IMG/VR virus record: IMGVR_UViG_3300042402_002687 | Coordinates: 1-64,000 of that record | Length of the DNA: 64,000 bases | From: a virus | Strand: one strand, 5' to 3' | Part shown: piece by piece, positions 1,592-64,000 of the stretch | Layout of the letters: every line of letters starts with the position of its first letter | Position numbering within the stretch: position 1 is the stretch's first letter | The notes under the pieces: generated by a model | Databases searched by the model: none | Told to the model about the DNA's origin: nothing | What the model saw: only the letters and a program-made list of their open reading frames with translations | Translations under genes and position numbers: made by a program

Positions 1592-1852
1592 TTATAACTC
1601 AATAAAAATGCATTCGCCAGGGCATTCTTCTGCTGCCTCAATTACATCATCAACAAGACTATCAGGTACTCTGGCAACACCTTCCCCCATTGCCGGATTA
1701 GTTTTACCATCAAAAAGTTTTTCATTCCCATAATACTCTGCTGACTCTTTGACATAAAACAAACCGTCATCTTGGGGAAAAAAGACTGCGGGCGCAATCT
1801 CTGCACAAAGACCATCCCCTGTGCAAAGGTCTTGATCAATCCACACCTTCAT
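1592..1852 (-). CDS. Ferredoxin, actinobacterial single-cluster type
   Basis: An 86-residue acidic protein that begins MKVWIDQDLCTGDGLCAEI. It has exactly four cysteines at 10, 16, 77 and 81. The first pair is spaced CTGDGLC, with Asp13 where a 4Fe-4S ferredoxin would have the extra Cys, and the second lies in CPGEC near the end. This is the layout of actinobacterial 3Fe-4S (or Asp-ligated 4Fe-4S) ferredoxins that pass electrons to oxygenases such as cytochromes P450. No reductase or P450 is visible in the window, so the partner is probably a host enzyme, or less directly a phage oxidoreductase. The stop lies 2 bases after the thermonuclease stop-start junction, in the same operon. Confidence 0.9.
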   Translation of the reverse strand: MKVWIDQDLCTGDGLCAEIAPAVFFPQDDGLFYVKESAEYYGNEKLFDGKTNPAMGEGVARVPDSLVDDVIEAAEECPGECIFIEL

Positions 1853-12934: not shown

Positions 12935-13127
12935 CATCCAACTCTTGAAGCTTAGCTTCAATTTGTTCATCAATAGAATCCCATAATTTCTTCCAAGACT
13001 CTGGATCATCTAGAGATGCTGCTTTGCACTTCGCACCAGCATCCAACCTCAGCGATTCATAATTGCCAAGGTTCTTGGTAATACCAATCGAAGCCCAAAT
13101 TTCTACTTCATTATTTTGTTCTGACAT
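12924..13127 (-). CDS. Small acidic conserved phage protein
   Basis: 67 residues that begin MSEQNNEVEIWASIGITKNLGNYESLRLDAG; the strand-rich first half (up to LRLDAGAKC) resembles short proteins I recall from other actinophages near replication genes. The second half is an acidic helix with Trp residues. No function is known. It overlaps the upstream gene by 17 bases and whiB by 11. Confidence 0.6.
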   Translation of the reverse strand: MSEQNNEVEIWASIGITKNLGNYESLRLDAGAKCKAASLDDPESWKKLWDSIDEQIEAKLQELDDAK

Positions 13128-13554
13128 TGCTATCCTTTATTTTCATTTGCACCTTTTGTGCAAGCGGTTTTATGTTTTTCTCTTTCACAATTGGCCGACC
13201 CGGCACTCTTGTATTAAAGAACTCTACCATGATGTACACATCATCTTCACTATAATAGCGCCAATTTGCGTAACCTTTGTATTTATTTCCAAATTTCTTT
13301 GCATCCGGTATTAAAGATTTTTTCTCATACTTGCGAATGGTGTCTGCTCGCTTCTCAACGATCTTGGCGACCTCGCCTACAGTATAAATCCTATACAGAA
13401 TCAATTCGTGTTGTTCATACGGCATCTCAACCGTTGAGCCATCATCTAGTTTTTCAATATAAATTTTATTTTGTTTTTTATTAATCTTTTTAAGTTTAAC
13501 AATCGTTCCGGCATATGTGTAAAACTTATTAGTTGTTAGTTTACTCTTAATCAC
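13111..13554 (-). CDS. MerR-like DNA-binding protein
   Basis: 147 residues from the GTG at 13554, chosen because AGGAGAGG lies just upstream; the frame runs on to 13584 but with a TTG. Residues about 57-120 read LYRIYTVGEVAKIVEKRADTI, then a Lys-rich turn, then WRYYSEDDVYIM, which is the winged helix-turn-helix of MerR or excisionase-like proteins. The first 50 residues form a basic strand-rich domain (a KOW-like pattern). It could be an early regulator. Overlaps its neighbours by 8 and 17 bases. Confidence 0.65.
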   Translation of the reverse strand: MIKSKLTTNKFYTYAGTIVKLKKINKKQNKIYIEKLDDGSTVEMPYEQHELILYRIYTVGEVAKIVEKRADTIRKYEKKSLIPDAKKFGNKYKGYANWRYYSEDDVYIMVEFFNTRVPGRPIVKEKNIKPLAQKVQMKIKDSNVRTK

Positions 13555-13735
13555 GATATCCTCTCCTCTTAGATAATTTAGCAATAAATCTCTTAAAGTC
13601 TTTAACCGTTACATCTTTAGTGTCTGAGCAGACAACACAGGTGATATCAACATAGTATTCTCCTAAAGAGTAATACTCAGCGCCAGCAAACTTCTGTCCA
13701 CCGCATTTGTCGCAAGTTAATCTTATGTGATTCAT
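13547..13735 (-). CDS. Small zinc-ribbon protein
   Basis: 62 residues with two CxxC knuckles (CDKCGG and CVVCS) about 22 residues apart, a plain zinc ribbon, followed by a basic tail (KRFIAKLSKRRGYR). A GGGGAT ribosome site precedes the ATG. Such ribbons bind nucleic acids or proteins; the specific role is unknown. Confidence 0.65.
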   Translation of the reverse strand: MNHIRLTCDKCGGQKFAGAEYYSLGEYYVDITCVVCSDTKDVTVKDFKRFIAKLSKRRGYRD

Positions 13736-22646: not shown

Positions 22647-23044
22647 TATGCTTCCTCAACGCTTAGACTTACTGAGTAATAATCACAACCAGTAGAAATA
22701 TCCCTTCTTATTAAATCCTCTGAATAATCCTCAATATAAACATATATCAACTCAGCCGGTCTTGCAGGGTCAAGTTTTATTGACATCGGTATCTTTGATC
22801 TTGTTGTCAAAGCTAAATCTTTAATATAATCTCTTGCCTTACGATTATCAATTGTATGGGAGGCTAGAGAGGGTAGCCATTCCCATTTGAAAGAAAATTT
22901 TCTCTTAGATGCTTTTATATATCTTTTTCGTACACCCTCGTCTAATTCAACATCTGATGCATTCAGGACTATTGAATCATTAATCTTGCGACCCTGCTCC
23001 GTCAACTCTTGTCCGTTAAGTGATAAAAAACTTATTACTGTCAT
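22646..23044 (-). CDS. Distal tail protein, short paralogue of the next gene's C-terminal domain
   Basis: 132 residues: FLSLNGQELTEQGRK, then WEWLPSLASHTIDNRKARDY, then DLIRRDISTGCDYYSVSLS. These blocks match the C-terminal domain of the 336-residue protein in order and spacing. It follows the tape measure directly, the place of distal tail (Dit-like) proteins in siphophages. Stop and next start overlap (TAATG-like), so the paralogues are made together. Confidence 0.65.
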   Translation of the reverse strand: MTVISFLSLNGQELTEQGRKINDSIVLNASDVELDEGVRKRYIKASKRKFSFKWEWLPSLASHTIDNRKARDYIKDLALTTRSKIPMSIKLDPARPAELIYVYIEDYSEDLIRRDISTGCDYYSVSLSVEEA

Positions 23045-29000: not shown

Positions 29001-32000
29001 TTGAAGTGTCATCATTTACATCTCCACCACCGGTAAGATGTTCTCTTCTTTGCCTTTCCAAATCAGCAATAGCATCGTCTACGGCTGGTTTTAGGTTTAG
29101 AAGATACTCATCAGAAAGTCTCATGTATTCAAGATGATCAAGTAAACTCATTCTTCTTGCCGCTTCGAAATTTGTCATTTCTCCATTAATTTGTTCTTCG
29201 ACACTTATTGATCTTTTAAGCTCTGCAATAAGACCTACATCTTCTGCTTTAGGCTTTGGTTTTTCTGTCTTTTGACCAAGACCAGATGCCTCGTATAGAG
29301 CTTCTTGAAATTTAGTAGTAACTTTATTGTCAAACCCAAGACTCGACAAACCAATTTTCCCAACTCCTGTTTGCATTAAATATGCAATTTGATCAATTTT
29401 TTTAATATTTCCAATTAGGGCAAGATCTGGATTGAAACTCTTTGCGTTCTTATCTGTAGAAGGTTTTACTGTCTTTAAAAGATCTAAAACAAATTGTATA
29501 GCAGAATTTTGATCTGTAAACACAAACTCAACTTCATCGGCAACCCTTGCCATTTCCTGAAATACTGGAGGAAGTGCTATGTCAAATTGTTTTGCCATAT
29601 TTCTAATTACATCACCTGTAAGACGCATTCTCTTTTGACCTGGAGTAGTCCTACTCTCCCCAATCTCCGAAAGATCCTTGTGATATGTTTTAAACCCAAA
29701 TTCTTTGAGTTCTCTCAAAGTTGATTTCTTGAATGTCTCTAAAGCATCATCGATTGAGACGCTTGCATTTTTAGCAATTTGAACCATATTGTTGCTAACT
29801 TCACGCATAAACTCTTCTGGTTCAAGATTAACTACGCCACGAACAATTTTCTTACTTGCATCTTCAAAAATTGATTCAGAAAATGCAGTATTACCAATTT
29901 GATCAAGTTGTGTTAATGCTGTTTTAAAATTCTCTATTTCAGCGTATAACTGGTCAATACCCAATTCATATTGCGTAATTTGCTCAGCAATTTGTCCATA
30001 TTTTAGCAATGGTGTAGGGGTGGTAGCCAAGGCTTTGGTTTTACCAACTATGGCTGTCTTGGCTTGCCTAATTGATTTTCTTCTTTCTTCAATACTGTCA
30101 CTTATTCTTTGAGCAGCTACTATAACCATATCTATTGATGTAAAAGAATCAGACATCAAAGCACTATCTACGGCTTGGCCTCTAATTATTTTTCTTATTA
30201 ATTCAACTTCTTTTTGATGTTTTGCATTATATTCATTTAATTCTTGAATATTTCTTTGATTAAGTTGGGTAAGTTCTTCAAATCCAGATTCTGTTGAGTA
30301 TGTAGCAACTTCTTTCAACAGTCCACTTTGAATTCCTCTCCTCAAGATGGCCATCAAGCCAGAGAATTTTTTCATTTCAACACTTAGCTCAGCAAGAACA
30401 TTTATCCTTTGTCTTTCAAGAGATTTCTTTAGTTCAATCTCTGCTTGAAGTATTGTTTCAAATTCTTGTCTTGCATTCTCAAGCATTGTCTCATCAGAAA
30501 CAATTCTTGGCGGAGTTGCTGAGTCTTGCATAGAAGTAAGTTGTTCCTTAAGCCCTACCAATTCAGCCGATTTATCTCCATCAATAAGTTTCCTCTGAGC
30601 ATTGATAGCATCCCTCTTTGAAGCATTAACAGCTAGTTTTTCTTTAATCTCAGCAATTTCCTTGCTTATACCCTCAGTGGCTCGCTTCTTAGCCTCTGGG
30701 GAATTCATGGATTTCAAGGACTGTAGCATTTCAGAAAGAGTTATCTCTTTTCTGCGAAGCTCGTTAAATAAAGTATTGTCGGATTTCTGTTCTTCAGAAG
30801 AATACTCACGGAGCAGTTTATCCAAGATATCTCTTGCATTATTTAATTCATTCACTTTATCAGCAATGGCTTGAGCATTTTCTTGAGCATACTTTTGAGC
30901 TTTCTCAAGATTGGTAGCGTAATCAGTTTTCTGTTTAGAAACATTTTCTTCAATTATTTCAACTTTATTTACTCTCAGTCCTTTTATTACTTGTGATTGT
31001 GTAAAAATATCATCTTTCAAACCACTTGCAACATCTTCCATTTTTTTTGAACTTTCTCTCAACGATTTTGCTCTGTCAAGCACAGATGGCATTAATTGAC
31101 CTATATTGACAGATGCAGCTGACCCAATGTTTACTACAAGATTCTCTAATCTTTTCTTTTCTAATTCCAAATTTTTTACGGTATCTTGCATCTGTTTTAG
31201 TGTTGTTGTTATTTCATTACCACTGCTATCTACAGATACAACTTCTTCTAAACCAGACTCTTTAAGTTTTTTTATTTTTTCTTTTGTTGCTTGTAATGAA
31301 CTTGTTACCCAGTCAAGTGCGTTATTCTTTTCATCAGCATCTGCATCATACTCTTCCATAAGTTCCAAAAATTCAAGATGCAACGCACTATTTGCCTCAT
31401 CAGCTTTTTCTTGTTTATCTTCAATGTTTAAAAATGAAGACGCTCTTCCTATTGCAGTACCACCAAGACTGGTCTTGATGTTTGCGACTCTTCCTGTAAC
31501 ACTTATAACTCTTTGAGATAAGCCAGCAACATTCTCACCTTCAATATTGATAGTATCTGAGACAGAGGTTGACAGTTTAATCATAGCTGTTTGCAAATTA
31601 ACTACTTGACTAAGTAGGAGTTCTATTTGACTCTTATTTTCACCAGTTGCATCCTTGCTTTGTATTTGTAAAGCTCCAATAAGAACTGTAAAGAATTCTC
31701 TCAAATCTTTTGAAACACCGAGTTTTAGATTATTAATTCTATTTTCAAGATCTATTATTGCCGATGCCGAATCATCGTTATTTTGAGCCTTATCAAGAGC
31801 AATACGAATTTTATTTATGCTATCCGACAATGCTGCTGGTGTGATATCACCCATTGATGGTATTTGAGCAATAATTGCACTTATGTTAAAACTTCCTGGT
31901 TTGAATGATATACCTTTTGTTGTTTTAATTAAATCAACAGTATTTTTTATAGCAGTATCTTTTATTAAAGTAAGTGAGTCAACTTCTGCTTCTCTAAACA

Positions 32001-35000
32001 GATCTCTTCTTTGTTCTAATGTTTTTAAGATTTCTGAAATAAAATTATCGTATGTCTCTATTACACCGCCAGCACTTAAATCTTTTTGATTAATTTGAGT
32101 AAACTTACTTGGGTCAAATCCTTCACCTAACAAGTCTGCAGAAGCAATTGCATCTTGAGTTATTGATGTGATTCTTTCCTGAACTTTCTCTATGGAGCTT
32201 AGATCAATGGCTTTTATAACCGTAGTGTTCTTAATACCTTGAGCAGTCTTTTTGCCAGTATTAGTTATAACTTCTTCAAGTTTGTCCTCTTCAGCATTTT
32301 GAACAATCTCTGAAGAGTTGTTGGAAGCATTTTCAGTCTTCTTAGAACCACCACTATTTCCTGCACGACCACCACTTTTCTTTACAGCATCTTCTGCGTC
32401 TTGACCCTTCTCGTCAACAACATCAGCAAGTGTTTCATCAGTAGCTAAAGCGACATCATCCGTCACTTGAGATACAGCATCGTCTACGGCTGGCGAGCCT
32501 CTTGTTGCATTCGCCTTTCCACCCTTTGGTTGCATTTTTTCTTTAATTTCATCAAGGGTTATTTTCATCTTATTTTCATCTTTTTCAAGAGCGTTCATGA
32601 TATTTTGACTTATGTTGGTAGGTGCCCTTTTACCAACTTTCAATCCAAGAAGATCTGCAATAATTTTACGCTGGTATGCCTTAAGACCTAGAAGACCTTC
32701 AAGCGTAGGATTCATTGCTACATCCAAAATCTTTTGTGCGTTTTCTTCCATTTTTTTAATAGATTTTGTAAGTTCATCTGCTGGGTTTTTTGCTGGCTTT
32801 ATTGGCTTATCTGGCTCGGCAACAATGCCACCTATTTCAGCAATAATTACATTAGATTGGTCTGTTAAATCTTCAAGTTTTTGTTGCTGCTCTTCAATTA
32901 CATCATCAATAACAATAGATGCATTGGAAGCGCTTGCGGCAGCATTTCCTGCAGCATTGCTTGGTGCAGGTTGAGAAGGCTTTGACCCCTGTGAAGGTTG
33001 TGGTGCTGGAGTAGGTTGTGGAGCAGGGGCTGGTGCTGGCTGTGGTGTAGGAGCGGGAGCAGGTTGTGGTGTTGGCTGAGGTGTGACTGGTGGCATTGTT
33101 ACAGTATTTTGTAAATCAATTAATCTTTGAGTAAATAAGTCTTCTATATTCTGAAGCAAATCAACAAGACGGCTTTGAAGATTGTTTGGATCCCAATCTT
33201 GCGTTATTGTTTGAAGATCCACAGCAAGATCAATAGCTTGGTCTGCAATATCTTCTGTAAATTTATCAATACCATTAACTAATTTTTCAAGTTCCATAGC
33301 CATCTTGTCAAGATCGGCTTGTACACCCTGATCTAGTTCGTCACGAATATCATCAATTATTTGTTGATAATTTTGTGTAGCAGATACTCTCTTAGAAGGC
33401 TTACCCCCCGCTCCTCCGGGACCTGTTCCTCCACCAGAACCTCCGCCAGAACCTCCGCCAGAGCCTCCGCCAGAGCCTCCGCCAGAGCCTCCGGAACCTG
33501 TTCCCTTTGGTGGATTAACTCGATTTGTACTAAACCCATTCATTCTTAATAATTCAAGGAATGCTTCAGCAATTCCTGTTCCAATAGCTGCTGCTTCTGT
33601 TTTTATATTAGTAATAATATTTCCGAATTCGTCATATGTTTCTTTCCTATAACCTTCAGAAACTGATAAATCTCCTGCACTATCAAACCCAGCCTTAACG
33701 GATTCTTTATAACCTGGCATAAGACCTTCAAAGTTTGCTTGTCGTTTATCAACACCAAGTGATTTGAATATCTTATCTGCCGTTCTCTTCTGGAAGAATC
33801 CACCAGTAGACAAAGCCATTGCTTTTTCAAGTTGCTGGAATTCTTTTAGAGTAGCTTTCAAAAAGAATTTATTACCAATCTGAGCTAAACCTCCACGCAT
33901 TTTGAATAATGCGGCATTGGAACGAATCATGGATTCTGAAACTTCAATTGCCTGTGTTTTTAATTTACCAAATGCATTCATTCCACGAATTGAAGCAAAT
34001 GCAGATCTCAGTTGAAATACCGCACCCATAATTTTCATTACCGGACCAATAGCAGCAAATAGTGCCAACCCAATTGCAAAAATCATCTTTCCAACTGGTC
34101 CAATTTTTTTAAGAATATTTGATATAAATTCAAGAATAGGGACTAGCGCTTTTAATACTTCACTAACAATTGGAACAATTTGTCTTCCGATTCCTTTAAT
34201 AATTTCTCTTGCTCTGTTATACCGTGTCTCTGCAGTTTCAAGAGAGGCCGCAACTTCTTGCAGGAATTTTCTTTGAGCCTCAGAACCTTCAGTACCTCCC
34301 TGAGCAGCAACAATCAATGCACGACCTGATTCTGTTGATATTTGAGCTACAACATCCGCCCCCGCCTGCGCTTGCTCTCTGAGGTAGTTGGCAAATTCGG
34401 ATCTACCCGCAGTGAACGCAGCAGCAACCTTTTCATCCTTGCTTGATGCCAATTCAACGGCCGCTGATAAGTCTTCAAACTTCTTAACTTGGAATTTACT
34501 ATATTCGTCTCCAAGACCAGCGGTATTCTTTCTTATATACTCTGAAAATTTATCAGCAATTTCTCTTTCTATAGAACCTTGTCTATCAAGAGCATCTTGG
34601 AACTGAGCAAGGTTCTGAATTGCGACTTCCATTCTTGGACCCTGACGCACTCCAAAAAGATTTGAGAACATTTCCATGGTTCCCTGCTCACCCTTCGATT
34701 CTTTAAGGTAGTTATAAGAGTCTGCAAGTTTTTGAATTGTTTCAATACCGACACCTGCTTCGATTGTAAAATCTTTATTATTCTGTCTAAAACCATCAAT
34801 TAATTGACTGTTTTCTTTTGTTAAGTCAACAAGTCTTTGTAGAGATACTTTAACCGAGTTGGCAGATGCTCCAACTTGGAAACCAGCAGCAACCATTGGA
34901 ACCATCAATGAAGCAGCTTCACCCATTGAAAGACCAAAAGAGGTTGCCGATGCTGTCAATTCAGGGAAGCCTTTTGCCAAGTTATTTAGAGACAAAGATG

Positions 35001-36039
35001 TTTTGTTTTCAAGTTGGTTAAACATTGCTAATTGAGCAGTTACTTCCTTCAACGCTTCATCTGCAGTAACATCTTTGCCCAAGTCTCTATTCACCCTCAT
35101 CACTGTTTGATAAATTGATTGAATGAATGCTTGTGATTCTCCAATATCAACATTACCCAACTTCTCAGTTGCTGCAGTTAAATCAACCAAGCTCGAAAGA
35201 GCACCTATTGAGCTAATTCCTAATTCAGCATAATCGCCTACAAGACCTTGTACGAGTTCCCTGGAAATACCGTATTTGAAACTTATATCGTCAAGAGTTT
35301 TGGTAAGTTTCTCCATTGCTCCATTAACGGTATACAATTGCTGCACTTGACCATCAATAACCATTGAATAACTCTTGCCATCTTTTGCCAATGATGCCCC
35401 AGTAGTCCTGACAACTTCATCTATGGTCTTGTAAGAGTCTCCAATAAGTTTTGTTGTACGAACTGTTTGAACTTCCAATCTCTTGAATGTGCTAAATGCA
35501 GATCTTGCAAATGCGATTATTGGAGCGGATACTGAAAGAGATAACCTCGTTCCGGACATGCTGTACTTGTTGGAAAGATCTGTTAAAGAAGCCGCTTGAT
35601 TCTTATAGCTTTGTGCAAGAGAATACTTTTGCAACTCCTTCTGCATAGCAAGTTGGCTATTAAGAGAATTTACTAGAGATTGAGATGCCGCAACTTGTTG
35701 TCTTGTCGCAGCCGCGCTTGCCGTTGATATAGCAGTAAAGCTATTTATATCTCTTTGCAGTCTTTCAACAGTGGCTGAGACATGCTTAAAGTGGTTGGCA
35801 AGAACTTGCTGGTTCTTTGAAAGGTTTGAAGTTGCTCTTGCATATGCAGATGAGGAACTGGTACCACTTGACAAAGCCTTATTTAAGGAATCAACTCCAC
35901 TTTTTGTGGACATTGATGTTCTATTTAAATCATTTGTAATTCTTAGAATGTATTGAACAGAGTCACCCATAGACTCAATAGCCGCTTTTAGGCTGTTGTC
36001 AATAATAGTATCAATTTGAACTCTGCCTGTACTTGTCAT
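23044..36039 (-). CDS. Giant tail tape measure protein
   Basis: 4331 residues, about one fifth of the window. The N-terminal part (to about residue 690) matches phage minor tail/tape measure proteins: helical, with LVDLTAATEKLG and FGLSMGEAASLMVPMVAAGF, then a hydrophobic stretch near 646-680 (MIFAIGLALFAAIGPVMKIM). A Gly-Ser tract (about 843-878) and a Pro-rich tract (about 983-1028) follow. Residues about 1030-3130 are long charged helices. A second Gly/Pro tract (about 3133-3178) leads to a part with several hydrophobic segments (near 3530-3616) and a Gly/Met-rich end. At the usual ratio near 0.15 nm per residue the tail would be about 650 nm (inference). This protein sets tail length and probably aids DNA entry. 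Confidence 0.95.
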   Translation of the reverse strand: MTSTGRVQIDTIIDNSLKAAIESMGDSVQYILRITNDLNRTSMSTKSGVDSLNKALSSGTSSSSAYARATSNLSKNQQVLANHFKHVSATVERLQRDINSFTAISTASAAATRQQVAASQSLVNSLNSQLAMQKELQKYSLAQSYKNQAASLTDLSNKYSMSGTRLSLSVSAPIIAFARSAFSTFKRLEVQTVRTTKLIGDSYKTIDEVVRTTGASLAKDGKSYSMVIDGQVQQLYTVNGAMEKLTKTLDDISFKYGISRELVQGLVGDYAELGISSIGALSSLVDLTAATEKLGNVDIGESQAFIQSIYQTVMRVNRDLGKDVTADEALKEVTAQLAMFNQLENKTSLSLNNLAKGFPELTASATSFGLSMGEAASLMVPMVAAGFQVGASANSVKVSLQRLVDLTKENSQLIDGFRQNNKDFTIEAGVGIETIQKLADSYNYLKESKGEQGTMEMFSNLFGVRQGPRMEVAIQNLAQFQDALDRQGSIEREIADKFSEYIRKNTAGLGDEYSKFQVKKFEDLSAAVELASSKDEKVAAAFTAGRSEFANYLREQAQAGADVVAQISTESGRALIVAAQGGTEGSEAQRKFLQEVAASLETAETRYNRAREIIKGIGRQIVPIVSEVLKALVPILEFISNILKKIGPVGKMIFAIGLALFAAIGPVMKIMGAVFQLRSAFASIRGMNAFGKLKTQAIEVSESMIRSNAALFKMRGGLAQIGNKFFLKATLKEFQQLEKAMALSTGGFFQKRTADKIFKSLGVDKRQANFEGLMPGYKESVKAGFDSAGDLSVSEGYRKETYDEFGNIITNIKTEAAAIGTGIAEAFLELLRMNGFSTNRVNPPKGTGSGGSGGGSGGGSGGGSGGGSGGGTGPGGAGGKPSKRVSATQNYQQIIDDIRDELDQGVQADLDKMAMELEKLVNGIDKFTEDIADQAIDLAVDLQTITQDWDPNNLQSRLVDLLQNIEDLFTQRLIDLQNTVTMPPVTPQPTPQPAPAPTPQPAPAPAPQPTPAPQPSQGSKPSQPAPSNAAGNAAASASNASIVIDDVIEEQQQKLEDLTDQSNVIIAEIGGIVAEPDKPIKPAKNPADELTKSIKKMEENAQKILDVAMNPTLEGLLGLKAYQRKIIADLLGLKVGKRAPTNISQNIMNALEKDENKMKITLDEIKEKMQPKGGKANATRGSPAVDDAVSQVTDDVALATDETLADVVDEKGQDAEDAVKKSGGRAGNSGGSKKTENASNNSSEIVQNAEEDKLEEVITNTGKKTAQGIKNTTVIKAIDLSSIEKVQERITSITQDAIASADLLGEGFDPSKFTQINQKDLSAGGVIETYDNFISEILKTLEQRRDLFREAEVDSLTLIKDTAIKNTVDLIKTTKGISFKPGSFNISAIIAQIPSMGDITPAALSDSINKIRIALDKAQNNDDSASAIIDLENRINNLKLGVSKDLREFFTVLIGALQIQSKDATGENKSQIELLLSQVVNLQTAMIKLSTSVSDTINIEGENVAGLSQRVISVTGRVANIKTSLGGTAIGRASSFLNIEDKQEKADEANSALHLEFLELMEEYDADADEKNNALDWVTSSLQATKEKIKKLKESGLEEVVSVDSSGNEITTTLKQMQDTVKNLELEKKRLENLVVNIGSAASVNIGQLMPSVLDRAKSLRESSKKMEDVASGLKDDIFTQSQVIKGLRVNKVEIIEENVSKQKTDYATNLEKAQKYAQENAQAIADKVNELNNARDILDKLLREYSSEEQKSDNTLFNELRRKEITLSEMLQSLKSMNSPEAKKRATEGISKEIAEIKEKLAVNASKRDAINAQRKLIDGDKSAELVGLKEQLTSMQDSATPPRIVSDETMLENARQEFETILQAEIELKKSLERQRINVLAELSVEMKKFSGLMAILRRGIQSGLLKEVATYSTESGFEELTQLNQRNIQELNEYNAKHQKEVELIRKIIRGQAVDSALMSDSFTSIDMVIVAAQRISDSIEERRKSIRQAKTAIVGKTKALATTPTPLLKYGQIAEQITQYELGIDQLYAEIENFKTALTQLDQIGNTAFSESIFEDASKKIVRGVVNLEPEEFMREVSNNMVQIAKNASVSIDDALETFKKSTLRELKEFGFKTYHKDLSEIGESRTTPGQKRMRLTGDVIRNMAKQFDIALPPVFQEMARVADEVEFVFTDQNSAIQFVLDLLKTVKPSTDKNAKSFNPDLALIGNIKKIDQIAYLMQTGVGKIGLSSLGFDNKVTTKFQEALYEASGLGQKTEKPKPKAEDVGLIAELKRSISVEEQINGEMTNFEAARRMSLLDHLEYMRLSDEYLLNLKPAVDDAIADLERQRREHLTGGGDVNDDTSIKIEKEIKRLINKLAEKKREIDRLYTASDTIQKETIENIRNRIDRTKNSKTGRLDISTLSKEELYKRKAPNPYLTTRPEVISQGLSETRKSLLTATKALMSAEDPAEQSRLQSEIAQLQSIINQYKEEKRRIALTIVSGFEKQLEPIYKIPSELRSREEQSILSTGNQIKASIQRAYDIAEQQWEASGYDRDFATPPAEAAVSALMSAAKMVKALQEKLLTNALTSENIVRSLVPDQFGAIPFVPLSSLKQQPRSLSAAAGPDPLIGTVVEDLATKMFKNLGLVGEELARAVEGYVDTLILSKENLKGVALAPMADMKEQMVLLEKALSTLGLTLSQALSEPKVAYEKMRDNLINKDFTKIAKNDEFVKMFKDLALFANTVANSDVYDAIELTKERLIEAAKRTKKPTGGTQSQSSSQSQTPARSGLFGPGLDRQTQLKPLIVALVKEIKEVGFAMDLFERATEEELQLIAGYLLKGTKRENDRGRQVEVASRKAARYLEDSTRIIKEHFNNIVESADYVTLQAGFVPLPIMPKPKAQAEDKVKQAAEKLNDVSKKITDDFVNDLNMFNTAVTKATSGQIPMLEVPVIEEKITQVSNDISEYLANIAQLIIEAVNMPYDELVDLLNHLQGMPTDIRDQLSAATKLPFETMFEHIENLIIESVTEMADDAYDAILPVVNNTPAPSATLARTVAESIDYINQELSSFPQVKNYANIEDELQLLINKISTITEDELLSLQLALEKIMVDPSEIQNWTRIMGSNIQDIYDTISEQIKKLQTVVQNTTPPVIPATPQTGGGSTGGGAKPPVTPPAGGAGGGGPLYPTPTGAPIPVPTTLQKTYKTAAKLIEVLVKVHAHFAYAVLKILPFGITMWNIGKAAVGAAKGTFDFLKYLKQTGSEAKNAGTGWRGFLTALKNDGTRMFGEIRKSMMAKLGGGIKSGARGAGGGLSNQLNMGLSQGINMATMNMGTAGMIGGNLVEGLLRGLSAIPYVGKPAVAIIAGVTGSIALLSKTQKTWGSKSGDTLKNFKESWKKIKDIFKELLKPLEDFVGVLIGGTSTAVSGTDKARSKLESFSGWLNTTLTKVKVLVETKVAPAFRRFLAVVISVYRGFMAVFGGIFDVIGAKFDAAANKNKKRVEATGKATSASAGRPATQDDKDYNKEVADKQMEAAKKKLKAGIGQLTTAIGTMIKMLLTDLFIQIFKWAFQLLYNIVEIIPQLMLEAMRLTAKGIFIVIKLILKGILLIPKGITTALGKVIEWFGNLAGLISRIPGMGFLKGVAKGIKDFGKDISGTQINWFDGMLGAIDTAYDGVSDGIDGIIDATKRQIGSRSDMLDAPFNFLKNYSKKKFGKELSAITKDLLPEGAGKGLFSSVKNMLEQAFKNPETAKAAGEALKDALAAVKDAKIQATIEFNNSALDAVSGKLGEAVNKIKDELTEQLTAQKDASLKVFDDQIEAINALAEAEQALTATEAYETNRRKMIRENELRRQNNRKDRSLAIYEGRIDDARSLDLQELKDSQDFSEQLTDLDSGRQRELQSINRNNAIEIIKAQREAASKQFDQAIKDFEKYSEKLLENGTFTEEQFKDQVGKMLTEAGLTSTGIQTKFTELFTALPAKIQAGMDPITAQAGFFSTGLESLRTTAATKFGLATGVSDPNSILGITSGMLGGIGSSVSTAFAVGGPIQTSYGTGLDAVNAYVKGKTTGTGPETTSSIFTQAITDAAAKMVAEAKSKEASVAAAAAKLVTGINDELAKIQKDALSKAIAEAGAGGIAAMKKAIADAKETAAGAGDGSKTLYFVRPRKGGGAFFSVSEGEYNGKYKDSTQYIKYTQVISAFKGGSIPYANGGKMKYGMGGMMMYGEGGPTFGPMNMGIPATLHGGEFVIRKKAVDKYGLDMLNQMNKGIYAPKVPSLNIPMANYSKIANSGSSQQISTSESNHNYNFYVDNFIGETEWFNTMMKEYNVKVVPANQKQAGLESRVVKSYNGINRGL
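33433..33494. repeat. Tandem 12-base repeats coding for Gly-Ser linker
   Basis: The unit CCTCCGCCAGAG (plus strand) and its close variants recur about five times within the tape measure gene, coding for GGGS-type repeats. The near-identical codons show recent slippage. Linker length could vary between relatives. Confidence 0.8.
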
Positions 36040-40018: not shown

Positions 40019-40797
40019 TTCTTTTTTTCCTTCATCTCTTGCTCTATTCTAATCTGGTGCTGTCTATAGATCCGGCTATCATCCTTTTGAGCTAAGCTTC
40101 CTTTGCCCATACCATTCCCATTTATAAATCTACGCATTGATTCATTTCCCCAAATAATATTTTTAAAATCTCCATGCCTATGATATGGAATCATATGCTG
40201 GATAGGTGTTCCGGCTGGAATAGTGAACTCCTTGTCCGTTAAAACATTTATCACAACATTTATTTGGTTATAAAAATCAGTATGAACAATGCCCGGAACA
40301 ATTGTATAATTTTCATTAGGTTCGTGTAGCATTGGTAGCGCAATAAGAGAAACCCCTTTTGGAGTGCGATATCTCCAAGGTGTTACTAATTTAGGGAATT
40401 GACCTGTTTGAACTTTATTATGTTTTGATATAGGACACCCCTCAGTCATTTCTTTGTTGAAGCCATCAATTGGAAAAGAATAATGATCATTGAAATCAGA
40501 TGTTTTAAATTCAAAACGCTTACCAGTGGAGTCTGGTCTTATTGTTACATCACACCATAGAGGGATTACAAAACCAGCAGTTGAGTAATCGTATACACCT
40601 TGGCATCTTCTCAATGAAAAACGGTCATGTGGTAAATCTTTCCACCAAGAAGGTAATTTTTTTTCCGCAAGATATGGCGGAATGCCCATGATCCTATTGT
40701 CATCAGGTATTATTACAATTTCATTCTTCTTGGGCTTAGGTATATCTTCTAAGAAATTTACAACCTTATATTTGTATTTGTTTGAGCGATTCCGCAT
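39997..40797 (-). CDS. DUF6065-like protein next to the halogenase
   Basis: 266 residues from the ATG at 40797, preceded by AAAGGTGG; it overlaps the halogenase stop by 32 bases. Key segments are IPPYLAEKKLPSWWKDLPHD, STAGFVIPLWCDVTI, PWRYRTPKGVSLIALPM, PGIVHTDFYNQINVVINV and FTIPAGTPIQHMIPYHRHGD, a jelly-roll-like order that I associate with the DUF6065 family (from memory, not a search). Several His and Asp residues could bind a metal. It probably works with the halogenase, as substrate-binding or modifying partner (inference). Confidence 0.6.
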   Translation of the reverse strand: MRNRSNKYKYKVVNFLEDIPKPKKNEIVIIPDDNRIMGIPPYLAEKKLPSWWKDLPHDRFSLRRCQGVYDYSTAGFVIPLWCDVTIRPDSTGKRFEFKTSDFNDHYSFPIDGFNKEMTEGCPISKHNKVQTGQFPKLVTPWRYRTPKGVSLIALPMLHEPNENYTIVPGIVHTDFYNQINVVINVLTDKEFTIPAGTPIQHMIPYHRHGDFKNIIWGNESMRRFINGNGMGKGSLAQKDDSRIYRQHQIRIEQEMKEKKKWYSLRK

Positions 40798-42235
40798 GGT
40801 CCACCTTTGCATGATTTGATTGTTCTATCTTAGCAGAGTCAACAAGATGAATTACATGATCTCTAATGTTAAAGTACTCAATTAACCTAGTGGCATTCTC
40901 TCTCTTCAAGACCCCTTGCCCTTGTGCAACATGATACAAATGAGGAACATGGAAAAGTTCAAAATCAACATTGCCAACATCAGTTGCCATTGGGCTGCGT
41001 ACACTCCATAGATCTAATAAATTATTTAAATACTCTGGCTTTTCCATGTTCTTCTGGTTTCTCCACATTTCACTATCATCTCTATCAGAAATATAGTGAA
41101 GGGAAATCATGGAAACCAAGTTATCCATCATAACATCCATTTTTTTATTAAAGTTATTACCGACTATAGAATTAGAATCATCATAGCCTACAAAGTTTTC
41201 AATAAAGCACCTAATTTGCTGAATTGTTGAGCTTATTGAAGTAGCCTCTAGTGGTTCAACAAATGAAGAACACAGACCCAAAGCCAAACAATTCTTATAC
41301 CACATTTTGTCAAGACTTCCCGGTTCAAATTTAAAAGACTTCTTTGGTGTAACTTCAAACCCAAGCAAATCTGATACATCTTTTATAGCCTGATCATCCG
41401 AAATTAAGTCAGAGTTGAATACATAACCGTTACCCCGCCTGCTTTGAGTTGGGATTTCCCAAACCCATCCATTGGCAGTTGCTCTAGCCCGAGTATAGGG
41501 TCTAATCTGACCACTGGGGTCAGACTCTGTTGGGAATGCTATAGCAGCATTCATTTGAAGGAACTTTGAGTAAGACCTCCACTTAGTATTTCCCATTGCA
41601 TTCATCAAGACTCTGGCTGTACCACTAGCATCAATCCAAAAATCCGATGTTTTTACATCCATATTGGATGTCATAACAGATTCGATATATCCATTTTCAT
41701 TATTCAAATTTACTTTTATAACCTCAGTATCTTCAATACTGATTCCTCTATTTTGGCATAATTTTTGCAAATAATCATTTAATCTATTTGTATCAAAATG
41801 GTATTGATTGACTGATGTATGTGGATTATCCGCTCTGACTTTGTTTTCAATCATAGCTCTAGATGCAGTATTTTCAGTCAGTGTTTTTCCAGCTTCAACC
41901 AATCCATTGTATAAACCACTTATTTGAAAAAGACCTTCATAGGGAACAGACGCAACGCTATGGAAATAATCAGGGGTATGCTTTGTCCAATTTTCAAATC
42001 GAATACCATTTTTATGAGTAGCATGTGTCTCATTAAGCATTTCTGCAAGGGGTATCTTGCAGATATCCATGAACATACGCCAATGTTCTGTGCTACCTTC
42101 CCCAACACCAACGATTCCAATCTTTGATGAAGACAATATTGATATGTTGAATCTTGGATAAGCTGCTTTTATCATTAAGCCAGCTAACAGTCCAGCAGTA
42201 CCGGATCCAACTATTGTAATGTTCTTTGTATACAT
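40766..42235 (-). CDS. Flavin-dependent tryptophan-type halogenase
   Basis: 489 residues. FAD binding GSGTAG is at 10-15 and GVGEGS at 43-48. Lys75 (in ATHKNGIRF) fits the catalytic lysine of PrnA/RebH that carries the hypohalous acid, WVWEIP (257-262) is the WxWxIP halogenase signature, and Glu330 (EPLEATSISS) matches the glutamate of the active site. These residues argue for an active halogenase rather than a monooxygenase. Such enzymes need reduced flavin from a reductase, which is not encoded nearby. The substrate might be free tryptophan, a peptide or a protein. The start lies inside the end of the upstream gene (25 bases). Confidence 0.92.
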   Translation of the reverse strand: MYTKNITIVGSGTAGLLAGLMIKAAYPRFNISILSSSKIGIVGVGEGSTEHWRMFMDICKIPLAEMLNETHATHKNGIRFENWTKHTPDYFHSVASVPYEGLFQISGLYNGLVEAGKTLTENTASRAMIENKVRADNPHTSVNQYHFDTNRLNDYLQKLCQNRGISIEDTEVIKVNLNNENGYIESVMTSNMDVKTSDFWIDASGTARVLMNAMGNTKWRSYSKFLQMNAAIAFPTESDPSGQIRPYTRARATANGWVWEIPTQSRRGNGYVFNSDLISDDQAIKDVSDLLGFEVTPKKSFKFEPGSLDKMWYKNCLALGLCSSFVEPLEATSISSTIQQIRCFIENFVGYDDSNSIVGNNFNKKMDVMMDNLVSMISLHYISDRDDSEMWRNQKNMEKPEYLNNLLDLWSVRSPMATDVGNVDFELFHVPHLYHVAQGQGVLKRENATRLIEYFNIRDHVIHLVDSAKIEQSNHAKVDHAESLKQIQI

Positions 42236-59161: not shown

Positions 59162-59180
59162 ATTGACAACTTCTGTCAAT
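59162..59180 (-). terminator. Hairpin after the ribonucleotide reductase gene
   Basis: ATTGACA (59162-59168) and TGTCAAT (59174-59180) form seven pairs with a five-base loop right at the reductase stop. No U-run follows. It may be a weak terminator or an operator for the head module promoter. Confidence 0.45.
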
Positions 59181-61246
59181 TATTTAGGAATGTTGTCTTT
59201 AATAAGTTTAATTTCGCAAGAATCTGTACTGCAATAGTTTTCACCAATAGCGTCTGCTGCCATTCCTGCATAAACTCCGGAGAAGTCAATTGGGAATAAT
59301 TTCATTTCACCATCATTGATATATTCCTCTTCTGTTATTTGAGTGTATGGCATTTGAGGATATGTAAAATTACCTGAAGGTAGGAAAGACACAGTTTTAA
59401 GTTGTCCGTCATACATGTGCAAGACGGTTCCAATATGCTTCTGCTCCTTTTCCGAATCAAAAGAGATTGTGACTGACACAGAGTTATCTGACCAGTATCT
59501 TTGAGCATGAGCAGCTATTGCCATTTTCTCAAATATAGTGACATCCTTTTCCGCTCTTCTTGCTAAAGACTTGATTGGAAAAAATACGACAGATGTTGTA
59601 TCTGGGGATTCAGATGCTGGCTCAACACGGTAATTAGCCATGCGGAATAGAGGCAACATTGGATCATCATTAGAAAAACGAATTGCACGATTAAAGTACT
59701 TACCACCTGGTGTCCAATGAACTCCCGGAGACTCTCCAGCCAAAATTGAAACAGTACCGGAAGGCTTAACAGTTGTCATCTTGATTGATTCACGAATACC
59801 AAACCATTCTGAATAGATGTTGTCGTATCTTTTAATTGTTTCATATCCACTATTCATCCATTGACGCAATACAGGCATTCCATTGATGTCAGCAAAATTT
59901 GCAATACCAGACATTGACGCACCAATACGGCGATTTCTTTGCATGATTGCATTTGTTTTTTCCCAATGAGTTGGAAGAAGAGTTACAGTTTTTGCATAAA
60001 GATAAGCAAACTTCAAAGTGCGCTTATAGTCATCAAGAGAGTCGTGACGGTTGAGGTAGGTTTCAACAAGAGTGCAGCACTCGTATGATTCAAGTGATTG
60101 CTCTGCACAGGGGTTATAACCAGCAACACGCCAGTCTTTATTATTTGGAGGATCAGCCAAGCGGCCATATTGCTGAGACATGTCCATCCAAATAACTCCG
60201 GGTTCACCATTCAAAGCAATGCTGTCAATAATATTTGAGATATCAGCACCAACCTTTGTCTCGATAGAGTTGTTACTCATCCATCCATGTCCGGGATCAC
60301 TAGGATCGTATGAATTTCTTTCAGGGAATACTTCAGGATTTTTCAGATTTAAAAAGTCTTCCGTATTGCGACCAATAAACAACTCTGCTGAACGGCGAAC
60401 ATTCCCTGATACAACACAAACACCAATTAAGTTACCCATATCGGCAATATCGACTGTTGTTAACTTTTCCCCTCCACGACCTTCAAACATTTTTTTAATC
60501 TTTTTATGAAGTTTCATCAATGGCTCTGGACCAGATGCTGTGCCTCCAAATGTTGCAATTGGCGATCCATATGGTCTTATAAGTGAGTAATCAAATTCGA
60601 TTGTTGGCTGATCTGGCTTTAGATATGAATTAATTAAATCACCAGTTGCTCTAGCCCAACTCTCTCTGTCATCTGCAATGACATCAACAAACACCTTGTC
60701 TAAAGGTTTGTAAATATTAAAATCTTTATCGGAACCCTTGTCGTCAAAACCAACACCAATGCCAAGCATTGATGCTTCCATCAAAAAAGTAAATGGCTCA
60801 GCAGGATTGTCTTTAGACATTTCAGATGTTGAAACAAAAGCACAGTTTTGAAGAGCAGCGGAGTTCTTGTGAATGTTTACAAGAGGTGTTCCCATAATCC
60901 AAAGTCCACGACCTGGGGGTGTCCACTTGAGATTAAATAAGCGATCAAAGGCTTCTTTTGCGCTAGATTGAGCCTTTACGCCGTTCCAAGGTAGACGGTT
61001 TTTTCTGCAGTGGTCTTTTTGTAGCGAGTACATGCCATTAATGACACGCTCGCAAACATCAGTCCAAGTCTCCTTTGTTCCATCCTGTTTTTTTCTTGAA
61101 TATGTCCTCAAGAAAGTTATTTCCCCAACCGAGTTGCCTGCAGCGTCTCTGTATCCAAATGGGGCTTTTTTGTTTTTATATGATGATACAAAATCATCAC
61201 TAAGTCTGAATGAAAATAGACTTTCATTTAATGTGCTTGAAACCAT
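59180..61246 (-). CDS. nrdJ: Class II (adenosylcobalamin) ribonucleotide reductase
   Basis: 688 residues from the ATG at 61246 with GGAG upstream. NCAFVSTSEM holds the first active-site Cys, NPCAEQSLESYECC the radical-site Cys and Glu, and KPSGTVSILAGESPGVHWTP is the loop typical of class II enzymes. YCSTDSCE at the end gives the C-terminal redox pair. The monomeric RTPR-like type reduces ribonucleoside triphosphates with B12 and works with or without oxygen. It relies on cobalamin from host or habitat. It supplies dNTPs together with ThyX. Confidence 0.93.
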   Translation of the reverse strand: MVSSTLNESLFSFRLSDDFVSSYKNKKAPFGYRDAAGNSVGEITFLRTYSRKKQDGTKETWTDVCERVINGMYSLQKDHCRKNRLPWNGVKAQSSAKEAFDRLFNLKWTPPGRGLWIMGTPLVNIHKNSAALQNCAFVSTSEMSKDNPAEPFTFLMEASMLGIGVGFDDKGSDKDFNIYKPLDKVFVDVIADDRESWARATGDLINSYLKPDQPTIEFDYSLIRPYGSPIATFGGTASGPEPLMKLHKKIKKMFEGRGGEKLTTVDIADMGNLIGVCVVSGNVRRSAELFIGRNTEDFLNLKNPEVFPERNSYDPSDPGHGWMSNNSIETKVGADISNIIDSIALNGEPGVIWMDMSQQYGRLADPPNNKDWRVAGYNPCAEQSLESYECCTLVETYLNRHDSLDDYKRTLKFAYLYAKTVTLLPTHWEKTNAIMQRNRRIGASMSGIANFADINGMPVLRQWMNSGYETIKRYDNIYSEWFGIRESIKMTTVKPSGTVSILAGESPGVHWTPGGKYFNRAIRFSNDDPMLPLFRMANYRVEPASESPDTTSVVFFPIKSLARRAEKDVTIFEKMAIAAHAQRYWSDNSVSVTISFDSEKEQKHIGTVLHMYDGQLKTVSFLPSGNFTYPQMPYTQITEEEYINDGEMKLFPIDFSGVYAGMAADAIGENYCSTDSCEIKLIKDNIPK

Positions 61247-61306
61247 GAATCTCCTTAATAGTGTAGACAACAATTTTATCAAACCTAGAACTAAGCGCAA
61301 TAGATA

Positions 61307-62326
61307 TTACTTAGGTCTAATGTTTTTTTCGTATTCGTCTAGTCTATCGAGCATCATATCAGCAATTGCCGGCCATGAATGGTTAGCGTGAATTATTTTT
61401 GCAGAATTCAAAGCGAGCATTTTGAAGAGGTCATATTCATTAACGACATTCTCCATGTGCATCACAAGTTCTTCAAAATCAGGTATAGCCCAGTCCCCAG
61501 TGTCTGTTGCGTATGAATGGCTGTTGAAAGTTGCATCACCATATTCAGCTGCCAATGGTATTCCATAATGAGCAAAGTCAGCGCAACCAGTTAGGTTTGT
61601 GACAATTGTTGGCATACCGGTTGCCATTGCTTCAAAAGGTATCATTCCAAAACCTTCTCCACTTGTTGGGTAAACCATGCAATGACATTTGGCATAAAGT
61701 TGTATTATCTCATCATTAGAGAAAATATCTGGAATACCGATAATTTGAGGATGCTGGTCAGCTTGAACAAGCTTGCCATTTACATAGGCTTCTGCAAAAC
61801 AGAACTTATTATACTTAAGTATTAATTTAAAATCCTCTTTACCTTCATAAAGTTCTAGAAAGGCATCAACAACAAGTTGAGCATTCTTTCTTTTAGCATC
61901 TCCACCAATATGTAGAAAATTAAATGTATTATTTAATTCTCTTTCAATAATTCTATATTCTGAAGAGATACCATGAGGTATTACAAATATCTCTTTAGAT
62001 ATACCATTGTTAATGTAAACATCTTTTACAAAGTTTGATGTAGTCCATATTTCATCACAAATGTTCATATTGTAATGCCAGCCTTCTGGTATTCGTGTAG
62101 ACTCCCAAGGAGTATAACCTATATTATAAGAATTTGACAATTGATAATAATAAGGCTGACAGAAATTAATATGAAAAGGTATTTCTGGATTGTTATACAT
62201 AACAACAGTATTTTTTTCCTGAAGAGCGGTAATCATACTTACTGCAGCGTTTGTGTACCCCTGACTAGACCAAAGTTCACCACTTAAGTCCATGTTCTGA
62301 GCGCTAAACCAGCTTATTTTTTTCAT
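61307..62326 (-). CDS. GT4-type glycosyltransferase, second copy
   Basis: 339 residues. CMVYPTSGEGFGMIPFEAMA and ATGMPTIVTN form the donor-binding signature. Residues IGYTPWESTRIPEGWHYNMN and WTTSNFVKDVYINNGISKEI correspond to similar segments of the 3317-4369 protein (VDEIWVGNYFAQDAVINSGI), so the two are paralogues. Start ATG at 62326; no ribosome site is evident. Confidence 0.85.
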   Translation of the reverse strand: MKKISWFSAQNMDLSGELWSSQGYTNAAVSMITALQEKNTVVMYNNPEIPFHINFCQPYYYQLSNSYNIGYTPWESTRIPEGWHYNMNICDEIWTTSNFVKDVYINNGISKEIFVIPHGISSEYRIIERELNNTFNFLHIGGDAKRKNAQLVVDAFLELYEGKEDFKLILKYNKFCFAEAYVNGKLVQADQHPQIIGIPDIFSNDEIIQLYAKCHCMVYPTSGEGFGMIPFEAMATGMPTIVTNLTGCADFAHYGIPLAAEYGDATFNSHSYATDTGDWAIPDFEELVMHMENVVNEYDLFKMLALNSAKIIHANHSWPAIADMMLDRLDEYEKNIRPK

Positions 62327-62330
62327 TTAT

Positions 62331-62585
62331 TTAATCTGTCTTCTTTTTATCGGTAATTTCTTTAGCGTGAGGTATCTCATCATTGAAGTCCAAATATTTT
62401 ACACCATTATCGATTAATTTTTCAGCACAATCCTGATCAATTTCACAAGTTATGGCTCTTCCAGTAAAAGCACAGTAGGTTGCGGCAATATAGAAATCAG
62501 AACATTTAACAACACTAATCACATCTTCGTCAAGGACAACGAATGGTCCACAGTCTTCAGATTCTACAATTGCGATAATTTTCAT
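62331..62585 (-). CDS. Small unknown protein, first minus-strand gene
   Basis: 84 residues: strand-rich start (MKIIAIVESEDCGPFVVLDE), three more Cys, and a charged end. No family recognised. The -10 box lies six bases before its ATG, so its mRNA is probably leaderless. Confidence 0.6.
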   Translation of the reverse strand: MKIIAIVESEDCGPFVVLDEDVISVVKCSDFYIAATYCAFTGRAITCEIDQDCAEKLIDNGVKYLDFNDEIPHAKEITDKKKTD

Positions 62586-62591
62586 ATATAT

Positions 62592-62597
62592 ATAATA
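62592..62597 (-). promoter_or_regulatory. Candidate leaderless -10 box, leftward
   Basis: TATTAT on the minus strand, six bases before the ATG at 62585 and overlapped by the first of the phased TAC repeats. No clear -35 box; the repeats may replace it as activator sites. Confidence 0.5.
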
Positions 62598-62667
62598 CTA
62601 TTAGTACTCTATTAGTACATTAAATACTATAGGTATACTAGGTATACCATAGTGTACTAAGTATACT
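62596..62667. repeat. Eight helically phased TAC motifs in the divergent spacer
   Basis: TAC occurs at 62596, 62605, 62616, 62625, 62636, 62645, 62655 and 62664 (plus strand), spaced 9, 11, 9, 11, 9, 10 and 9 bases. Most are within TACTA, TAGTAC or GTATAC, so half-sites repeat in both directions once per DNA turn. A multi-copy operator or bent DNA is likely. Confidence 0.65.
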
Positions 62668-62669
62668 GG

Positions 62670-62685
62670 CGCATCTTCCGATGCG
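62670..62685. other. Small perfect hairpin between divergent units
   Basis: CGCATC (62670-62675) and GATGCG (62680-62685) form six pairs around TTCC. It lies upstream of the thyX -10 box, so it would not be in a leaderless thyX mRNA; it may be a protein site or act at DNA level. Confidence 0.45.
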
Positions 62686-62745
62686 AAGCATACCATGCCC
62701 TTCAAGAAAAATATCAAAATTTTCATTTTTTTTTCCAAGCCCTGC

Positions 62746-62751
62746 TATCCT
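62746..62751 (+). promoter_or_regulatory. Candidate leaderless -10 box for thyX
   Basis: TATCCT lies six bases before the ATG at 62758, with no ribosome site. Same distance as the leftward box at 62592-62597. No clear -35 box. Confidence 0.45.
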
Positions 62752-62757
62752 ACTGGT

Positions 62758-63453
62758 ATGACAAACGAATATTATCATGAAGTATTGGATTTTGGAGAAA
62801 TTGAGTTAATCTCATCGATGGCATCAGATCTTGATGTAGTCAATGCTGCCAAGGTCAGCTTCTCTTCTTATAAGAAAGAAATTGATGAATCCTGCGTTGG
62901 CTTGATTAATTACCTTGTAAAGAACAAACATGCGACTCCGCTTGAACATTCCGTTTTTAAATTCCGCATAAAGGCTCCCATCTTCGTTACAAGGGAGTGG
63001 ATGAGGCATCGCTGGTCATCGTTTAATGAGATGAGTATGAGATATTATGTTCCACCTAAAATTGATTACTATATCCCAGCCTTTGAGAATATTAGAAGAC
63101 AAACCGGAAAACCTGGTGCTTATTCTTTTGAAGAAATTGAAGACCCAGATCTCAAATCATTGGTTATGCGCAGGATGCAAGAAGTAATTGGCTATTCTGA
63201 TTTAGTTTATCGAGACTTGATTGAATTAGGTGTCGCTAAAGAAATTGCTCGATGTGTGTTGCCGGTAAGTCAGTATACAGAGTTTATATGGACAGTTAAC
63301 GCTAGAAGTTTGATTAATTTTATTTCATTAAGAAATGATTCAAATGCTCAATATGAAATTAATGAATATGCAAAAATTATTGAAAAAGTTTTTGCTCAAA
63401 AAATGCCAATAACATATGAAGCATTCATTAATTCTGGTAGAGTATCTATATGA
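62758..63453 (+). CDS. thyX: Flavin-dependent thymidylate synthase
   Basis: 231 residues. RHRWSSFNEMSMRYY is the ThyX motif RHRxxSxNxxSxR, and LPVSQYTEFIWTVNARSLIN is the conserved C-terminal nucleotide-binding part, with RNDSNAQYEI following. The enzyme makes dTMP from dUMP with FAD and folate. The frame is open to 62695, but ThyX begins naturally at the ATG at 62758. First gene of the rightward unit; stop overlaps the next start as ATGA. Confidence 0.95.
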   Translation: MTNEYYHEVLDFGEIELISSMASDLDVVNAAKVSFSSYKKEIDESCVGLINYLVKNKHATPLEHSVFKFRIKAPIFVTREWMRHRWSSFNEMSMRYYVPPKIDYYIPAFENIRRQTGKPGAYSFEEIEDPDLKSLVMRRMQEVIGYSDLVYRDLIELGVAKEIARCVLPVSQYTEFIWTVNARSLINFISLRNDSNAQYEINEYAKIIEKVFAQKMPITYEAFINSGRVSI

Positions 63454-63620
63454 GTTTTTTTCTATTTTGGTCATGGATTGCAATCCATACATTAATACTG
63501 AATATAGCAATAAAAGCTGGATGGAGCCATGACGCAGGCTATGTTGCTCCATTCTTAATGATTCTTTCATTACATTTAATTATTGCATTGTTTAATGCCA
63601 AAAATAGAAGTGGATCTTAA
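63450..63620 (+). CDS. 56-residue two-helix membrane protein
   Basis: Short gene read directly, its ATG overlapping the thyX stop (ATGA). Two hydrophobic stretches (FFLFWSWIAIHTLILNIAI and VAPFLMILSLHLIIALF) flank a hydrophilic turn (KAGWSHDAG), and the end is basic. Unknown function. Confidence 0.6.
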   Translation: MSFFLFWSWIAIHTLILNIAIKAGWSHDAGYVAPFLMILSLHLIIALFNAKNRSGS

Positions 63621-64000
63621 ATCTTTCTTAAAGGATAAAAAAGTATTGGCTTTGTCTGATACATCTTATCCCCATAAATATATAAAAGACTTTTGCAACG
63701 AAATATCTGAGTCCGTTGTCGATGTTTATGTATCCCCAGCAACAACATCTGGATTTTTGAAAGTCTATGTCTCTCATACTGGAAACAGGCGATCAAAAAT
63801 ATTGAAAGATAAGAAATTTTTGTTGTTTAACAAAATTAAGCCAAAAGATTATATTATTGTTATATTTTTTGGTTCTAAAAAGACAAAAGAAACAAGAATG
63901 TTGACAGTTTTGGCGCAACAGCTCGTAATTCACGATTATAATATAATTACAGTAACCGAGGAAGGAGTAGATTATGACAAGGATAATCCCATTTTCAAAC
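63595..64000 (+). CDS. Unknown protein, cut by the right edge
   Basis: At least 135 residues, starting inside the previous gene (26-base overlap). Strand-helix start (KKVLALSDTSYPHKYIKDFC), VYVSPATTSGFLKVYVSHTG, KDYIIVIFFGSKKTKETRML, then QQLVIHDYNIITVTEEG. An alpha/beta fold with a phosphate-loop-like SDTS segment is possible, but no family is recognised. A TTG further in (after AAAGGA) is another possible start. Confidence 0.6.
   Translation, partial: MPKIEVDLKSFLKDKKVLALSDTSYPHKYIKDFCNEISESVVDVYVSPATTSGFLKVYVSHTGNRRSKILKDKKFLLFNKIKPKDYIIVIFFGSKKTKETRMLTVLAQQLVIHDYNIITVTEEGVDYDKDNPIFK

Follow-up and report, generated by a model that had tools for sequence, protein, structure and literature searches.

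A conserved 9-bp lattice of palindromic units as a candidate cooperative operator in the divergent control region of an uncultured phage

What controls the only point at which the genes of this phage change strand, and what is the role of the periodic array of short motifs lying there? The window, meaning the whole 64,000-nucleotide stretch of DNA that was analysed, covers positions 1-64000 of a 71,825-bp IMG/VR virus record. The main open reading frames (ORFs) all point leftward as far as 62585 and all point rightward from 62758 on; this is the sole strand switch in the record and makes 62586-62757 the only divergent control region seen. The rightward side begins with thyX (62758..63453, plus strand), identified by Pfam match as an FAD-dependent thymidylate synthase (PF02511). 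The leftward side begins with an ORF of 84 aa (62331..62585, minus strand; MKIIAIVES...), which is the constant neighbour of the array. This MKIIAIVESDD... ORF is conserved, measuring 72-84 aa across the phage and its relatives, and has no Pfam or PHROG match and no known family. Downstream of it lie genes for a glycosyltransferase (window 61307-62326) and a B12-dependent ribonucleotide reductase (window 59180-61300). When an annotated phage collection was searched, neither the nucleotides of 60000-64000 nor the leftward ORF found a match. The host is probably actinobacterial, because a WhiB gene is present, a judgement drawn from the distribution of that family.

The initial annotation, made from the letters of the window, described eight TAC motifs with spacings of 9, 11, 9, 11, 9, 10 and 9 bp. 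These are exactly as claimed: the motifs start at 62596, 62605, 62616, 62625, 62636, 62645, 62655 and 62664, within a tandem array of near-palindromic units (62596..62667) whose pitch is 9-11 bp here and 9 bp in most relatives. The periodicity exceeds shuffled controls, since a TAC chain of eight at 9-11 bp occurred in 0 of 5000 dinucleotide shuffles of 62586-62700. Even when the best of all 64 trinucleotides was taken in a look-elsewhere test, the longest chain in 1500 shuffles was 7. Moreover, the next longest 9-11-bp TAC chain in the whole record is 2. Two further claims failed. The motifs were said to lie on nearly one face of the DNA, but with a turn of 10.5 bp their phases (0, 308, 325, 274, 291, 240, 222 and 171 degrees) shift by about 190 degrees, and random 9-11 spacings give a higher mean vector strength (0.68) than these motifs do (0.59). 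The best-fitting period of the chain in the window is 9.8 bp. A strict same-face helical operator is ruled out by this drift together with the 9-bp period in relatives. The array was also said to span both divergent promoters; its limits are the putative proximal leftward -10 (62592-62597) and a point shortly downstream of the putative distal leftward -10 (62687-62692), and the putative thyX promoter (62743-62751) is about 80 bp outside it.

The nature of the repeated element becomes clear from relatives. A ThyX search gave 80 viral loci, and in those with upstream DNA thyX is divergent from the same small ORF. The relatives set comprised 41 non-redundant spacers, including that of the window. 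Mean autocorrelation over the 41 spacers peaks at lags 9 (0.379) and 18 (0.334) and not at 10-11, and the strict TAC chain is confined to the clade of the window plus a small number of others (9/41, P up to 0.03). The shared element is the 8-bp palindrome AGYATRCT followed by one further base, W. The unit model, learned by EM on one strand from a best seed that was itself palindromic, is dyad-symmetric, pairing A.74 with T.85, G.79 with C.88, T+C with A+G, and A.81 with T.89. Exact AGYATRCT occurs 56 times in the leaders versus 0 in the thyX-side spacer (3643 nt), and 33 of the 47 gaps of 8-11 bp between neighbouring units (at most one mismatch) are 9 bp. Exact units lean to one strand, with AGTATGCT found 24 times and AGCATACT 6 times on the minus strand. 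The array of the window is degenerate, with the exact consensus in one of eight units (AGTATACT, 62660..62667), one mismatch at 62632 and 62651, and two mismatches at 62592, 62603, 62614 and 62641. A two-unit pattern matched mostly at one place per record in the longer records of relatives; the exceptions were G007, with a second weak place, and 8 records without a match at one mismatch.

The array lies among three putative promoters, for which promoter activity is inferred from their motifs. The proximal leftward promoter P_L1 (62592..62600, minus strand; -10 TAGTATTAT) would lie 6 nt from the ATG of the leftward ORF. The thyX promoter P_R (62743..62751, plus strand; extended -10 TGCTATCCT) is likewise placed 6 nt from the thyX ATG. 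Across relatives, TGNTANNNT stands 4-9 nt before an in-frame thyX start in 37/41 cases, compared with 0.7% in shuffled controls, and a TG-type extended -10 of the same form is found just upstream of the leftward ORF in 30/41. Both transcripts thus look leaderless from the sequence, and leaderless genes are common in actinobacteria.

The distal leftward promoter P_L2 (62687..62695, minus strand) has the putative extended -10 TGGTATGCT, with its hexamer at 62687-62692. A P_L2 -10 is present beyond the array in 41/41 relatives, reading TAYRCT in most, and the T, A and last T of its hexamer never vary among the 41; L042 even has a perfect TTGACA-17-TATGCT. These sites were picked by eye, so the conservation statistics for P_L2 are descriptive. 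The P_L2 octamer keeps the register of the array, being offset by -2 to +1 bp from a multiple of 9, in 26/29 relatives, whereas about 13 would be expected if registers were equal. Between P_L2 and the array lies an inverted repeat, CGCATC-TTCC-GATGCG (62670..62685). A stem of at least 6 bp is found at this place in 23/41 relatives versus 0.6 expected, and the 15 distinct stems of at least 5 bp vary in sequence while complementarity is kept, as is also seen in the comparison of L015 with L017. In many relatives the thyX-side spacer also carries a CGACA/CGCACA motif, placed where the -35 of P_L2 would stand, 18 bp ahead of the -10 hexamer; it was not seen in the window's own clade.

The expectation that the array would recur in relatives was borne out in part. 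It is common to dozens of them, but the 10 most distant showed no unit, even though the promoter motifs and the two flanking genes persist there. The array is therefore lineage-limited. Whole units are gained and lost, as illustrated by L003 and L005, near-identical phages that differ by exactly one 9-bp unit. Substitutions per site, counted in 23 disjoint close pairs, amount to 0.061 on the array side, versus 0.109 in the thyX-side spacer, 0.141 in thyX and 0.110 in the leftward ORF, a difference to which recombination could contribute. An exact three-unit pattern, which misses degenerate arrays such as that of the window, matches 16 stretches of viral contigs. Among those examined apart from the ThyX loci, in six (L083, L085, L088, L093, L094 and L095) the array adjoins the same leftward ORF and other genes occupy the thyX side, while L089 is a low-complexity repeat. 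A tie between the array and thyX is ruled out, since the array stays by the leftward ORF where thyX is not its neighbour. The pattern also gives 4 hits in bacterial genomes, and the one examined, L100, is a low-complexity repeat. Taken together, these comparisons indicate that the array is a real, conserved but lineage-limited element of regulatory type.

The suggestion of a cooperative operator in the initial annotation, shorn of its helical-face argument, is the best-supported reading, based on palindromic units, a lattice in register with a -10, and slower substitution. It is held here with moderate confidence that the array is a cooperative operator controlling the leftward gene block. A small DNA-binding protein, most likely encoded by the phage, would bind each AGYATRCT palindrome weakly, and the 9-bp (locally 9-11-bp) pitch of tandem sites would let that protein assemble as a filament. 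Such a filament might start on the P_L2 -10, cover the inverted repeat and the array, and reach the leaderless P_L1. It would thereby block or time transcription of the leftward 62-kb block, which consists of the small ORF, the glycosyltransferase, the ribonucleotide reductase, and structural and replication genes, while thyX would use its own promoter outside the array. Repression is somewhat more likely than activation, because unit zero of the lattice is a -10. Several observations speak against an operator: the candidate regulators do not track the array, the array of the window is degenerate, and the 10 most distant relatives do without it. The strand lean of exact units also counts against it, as a symmetric site would not predict such a lean.

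That lean counts in favour of a reading without a separate regulator, in which the units would form a series of -10-like elements where RNA polymerase is held or pauses, or from which many transcripts start. TATRCT, found in the units, resembles the P_L2 hexamer TAYRCT, and P_L2 itself is unit zero of the lattice. Nevertheless, the most conserved positions of the unit are the dyad-related G2 and C7, neither of which a -10 needs, and the unit has TAG or AAG where the extended -10s of this phage have TGN. Furthermore, where P_L2 reads TACGCT or TACCCT, the units mostly still read TATRCT, and this explanation is considered quite improbable. Somewhat better placed, though still unlikely, is the proposal that the divergent region is the replication origin of the phage, where an initiator or helicase loader would bind the units as iterons and the AT-rich flank would serve as the melting element. 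The array does sit at the only strand switch of the record, where GC skew turns from -0.095 to +0.076 and 62586-62670 is 74% AT, and the phage encodes DnaB-, DnaG- and DnaE-like proteins. Gene orientation, however, explains the skew switch equally well, a 9-bp unit is short for iterons, and the ORFs scanned include no recognised initiator. In the most distant relatives the genes persist without the array, and an origin would have to accommodate a lattice in register with a promoter -10.

The array could also act as RNA, in the leader of a P_L2 transcript made of a 5' hairpin followed by 9-nt repeats. The hairpin by P_L2 keeps its pairing despite sequence change and folds somewhat better on the minus strand than on the plus (mean z -2.1 versus -1.3), and neighbouring palindromic units can pair with each other. 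Folding of the array itself barely goes beyond shuffles (mean z -0.6 on the minus strand and -0.9 on the plus strand), and a covariance-model search gave no Rfam family above its gathering score. If transcription starts about 7 nt after the -10, as assumed from the leaderless genes, the 5' arm of the hairpin is mostly untranscribed. An RNA role is less likely, with only a slim chance of being right, because most of the hairpin would precede the expected start or straddle it, a judgement that depends on the assumed start position. A palindromic unit that keeps register with a -10 speaks more for a DNA site than for an RNA. It is highly improbable, finally, that the array is a low-complexity slippage product without function. 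Gain and loss of whole units and the distant relatives without an array would suit such an origin, but the array accumulates substitutions more slowly than all its neighbours, shares its unit among many diverged relatives, keeps register with P_L2, and holds a constant position beside one ORF.

Among known systems, the cooperative operator proposed here has three close parallels. MetJ with its met boxes, like other ribbon-helix-helix (RHH) proteins, binds tandem 8-bp palindromes with AG....CT ends as cooperative dimers, and tandem palindromes are known as targets of the RHH_1 class. Met boxes, which read AGACGTCT, follow one another directly at 8 bp. The array shares the tandem 8-bp palindromes and the AG....CT ends, but its pitch is 9 bp, and no cognate RHH_1 (PF01402) protein was found in the phage genome, nor any over the cut-off in 10 relatives. 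An RHH regulator encoded by the phage was dropped for that reason.

The second parallel is Apl of coliphage 186, which represses both pR and pL from seven 6-bp direct repeats spaced at 10-11 bp between these promoters (PMC7498355). This system, with which the recombination directionality factors (RDFs) P2-type Cox and lambda Xis are grouped, resembles the array in having a phage control region, flanked by two major promoters, with about seven short tandem sites, roughly one per helical turn. Apl binds as a cooperative filament (PMC7498355), a mode that is proposed for the array. The sites of 186 are asymmetric 6-mers at 10-11 bp between face-to-face promoters, whereas the array has 8-bp palindromes at 9 bp between two co-oriented leftward promoters. 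The third is BldC of Streptomyces, a MerR-like winged helix-turn-helix (wHTH) protein that forms a head-to-tail filament on direct repeats of 9 bp (PMC5859096, PMC11963761). The likeness lies in the 9-bp pitch, the variable number of repeats and the actinobacterial promoters (PMC5859096, PMC11963761), and in a phage protein with a predicted BldC-like wHTH. The BldC consensus AATTXXXX(C), in contrast, is asymmetric and not evident in the array units; by inspection none contains AATT, and BldC tolerates divergent sites (PMC5859096). As in direct-repeat arrays of the RDF/BldC type, at least three tandem sites occur at about 9-11 bp, but asymmetric sites in one orientation were not found, the unit being palindromic with only a lean to one strand. 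By analogy, the array plausibly works like those of Apl and BldC and is a candidate for membership in either class.

Which protein would bind the array? The initial annotation named WhiB or a MerR-like protein as the possible regulator. The MerR-like wHTH protein (13114..13584, minus strand), a core gene of the group, is the leading candidate, because its model predicts a BldC-like wHTH without the long MerR coiled coil, joined to an N-terminal beta domain. The BldC chain superposes on this model at 2.0 A over 58 columns with a TM of 0.72 on BldC, at a Foldseek E of only 0.1, and the top-ranked PDB matches are other folds and classical MerR proteins. Neither named protein tracks the presence of the array. 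The MerR-like protein, WhiB and an ORF at 66088-66507, read as HTH by eye and from a weak PHROG match, are found in array-bearing and array-less relatives alike; as all three are core genes, linkage between array and regulator is uninformative. The leftward ORF was also considered as a DNA-binding protein, and its AlphaFold model is a small beta-rich fold with weak PDB matches (best E 0.07).

These results give a little-studied group of probably actinobacterial phages a defined cis-element in the only divergent control region seen, and they also supply putative extended -10 promoters of the leaderless kind and a few candidate regulators. Should the lattice serve as a filament track, a 9-bp palindromic version would join the Apl/Xis/BldC binding mode. 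A bolder and doubtful extension is that a phage-specific filament-forming protein with a new specificity, for 8-bp palindromes on a 9-bp lattice from a -10, could be the master switch of a widespread uncultured phage group, possibly also binding its replication origin.

Other genes of this phage were noticed during the analysis. The window encodes a very large tape measure protein of 4331 aa (23044-36039). An N4-type hairpin promoter, which would go with an encoded virion RNA polymerase, was considered, and this giant protein proved to be a tape measure and not a polymerase. A tryptophan-halogenase-like protein (PF04820, E 1.7e-94; window 40766-42235) is encoded among the structural genes, and a proteasome-subunit-like ORF (PF00227, E 8e-6) lies at 66769-67374 of the record (L082:6769-7374). 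A cytochrome P450 (PF00067; record 67686-68870, L082:7686-8870) and a 4Fe-4S ferredoxin (Fer4_15; window 1595-1852) possibly form a redox pair.
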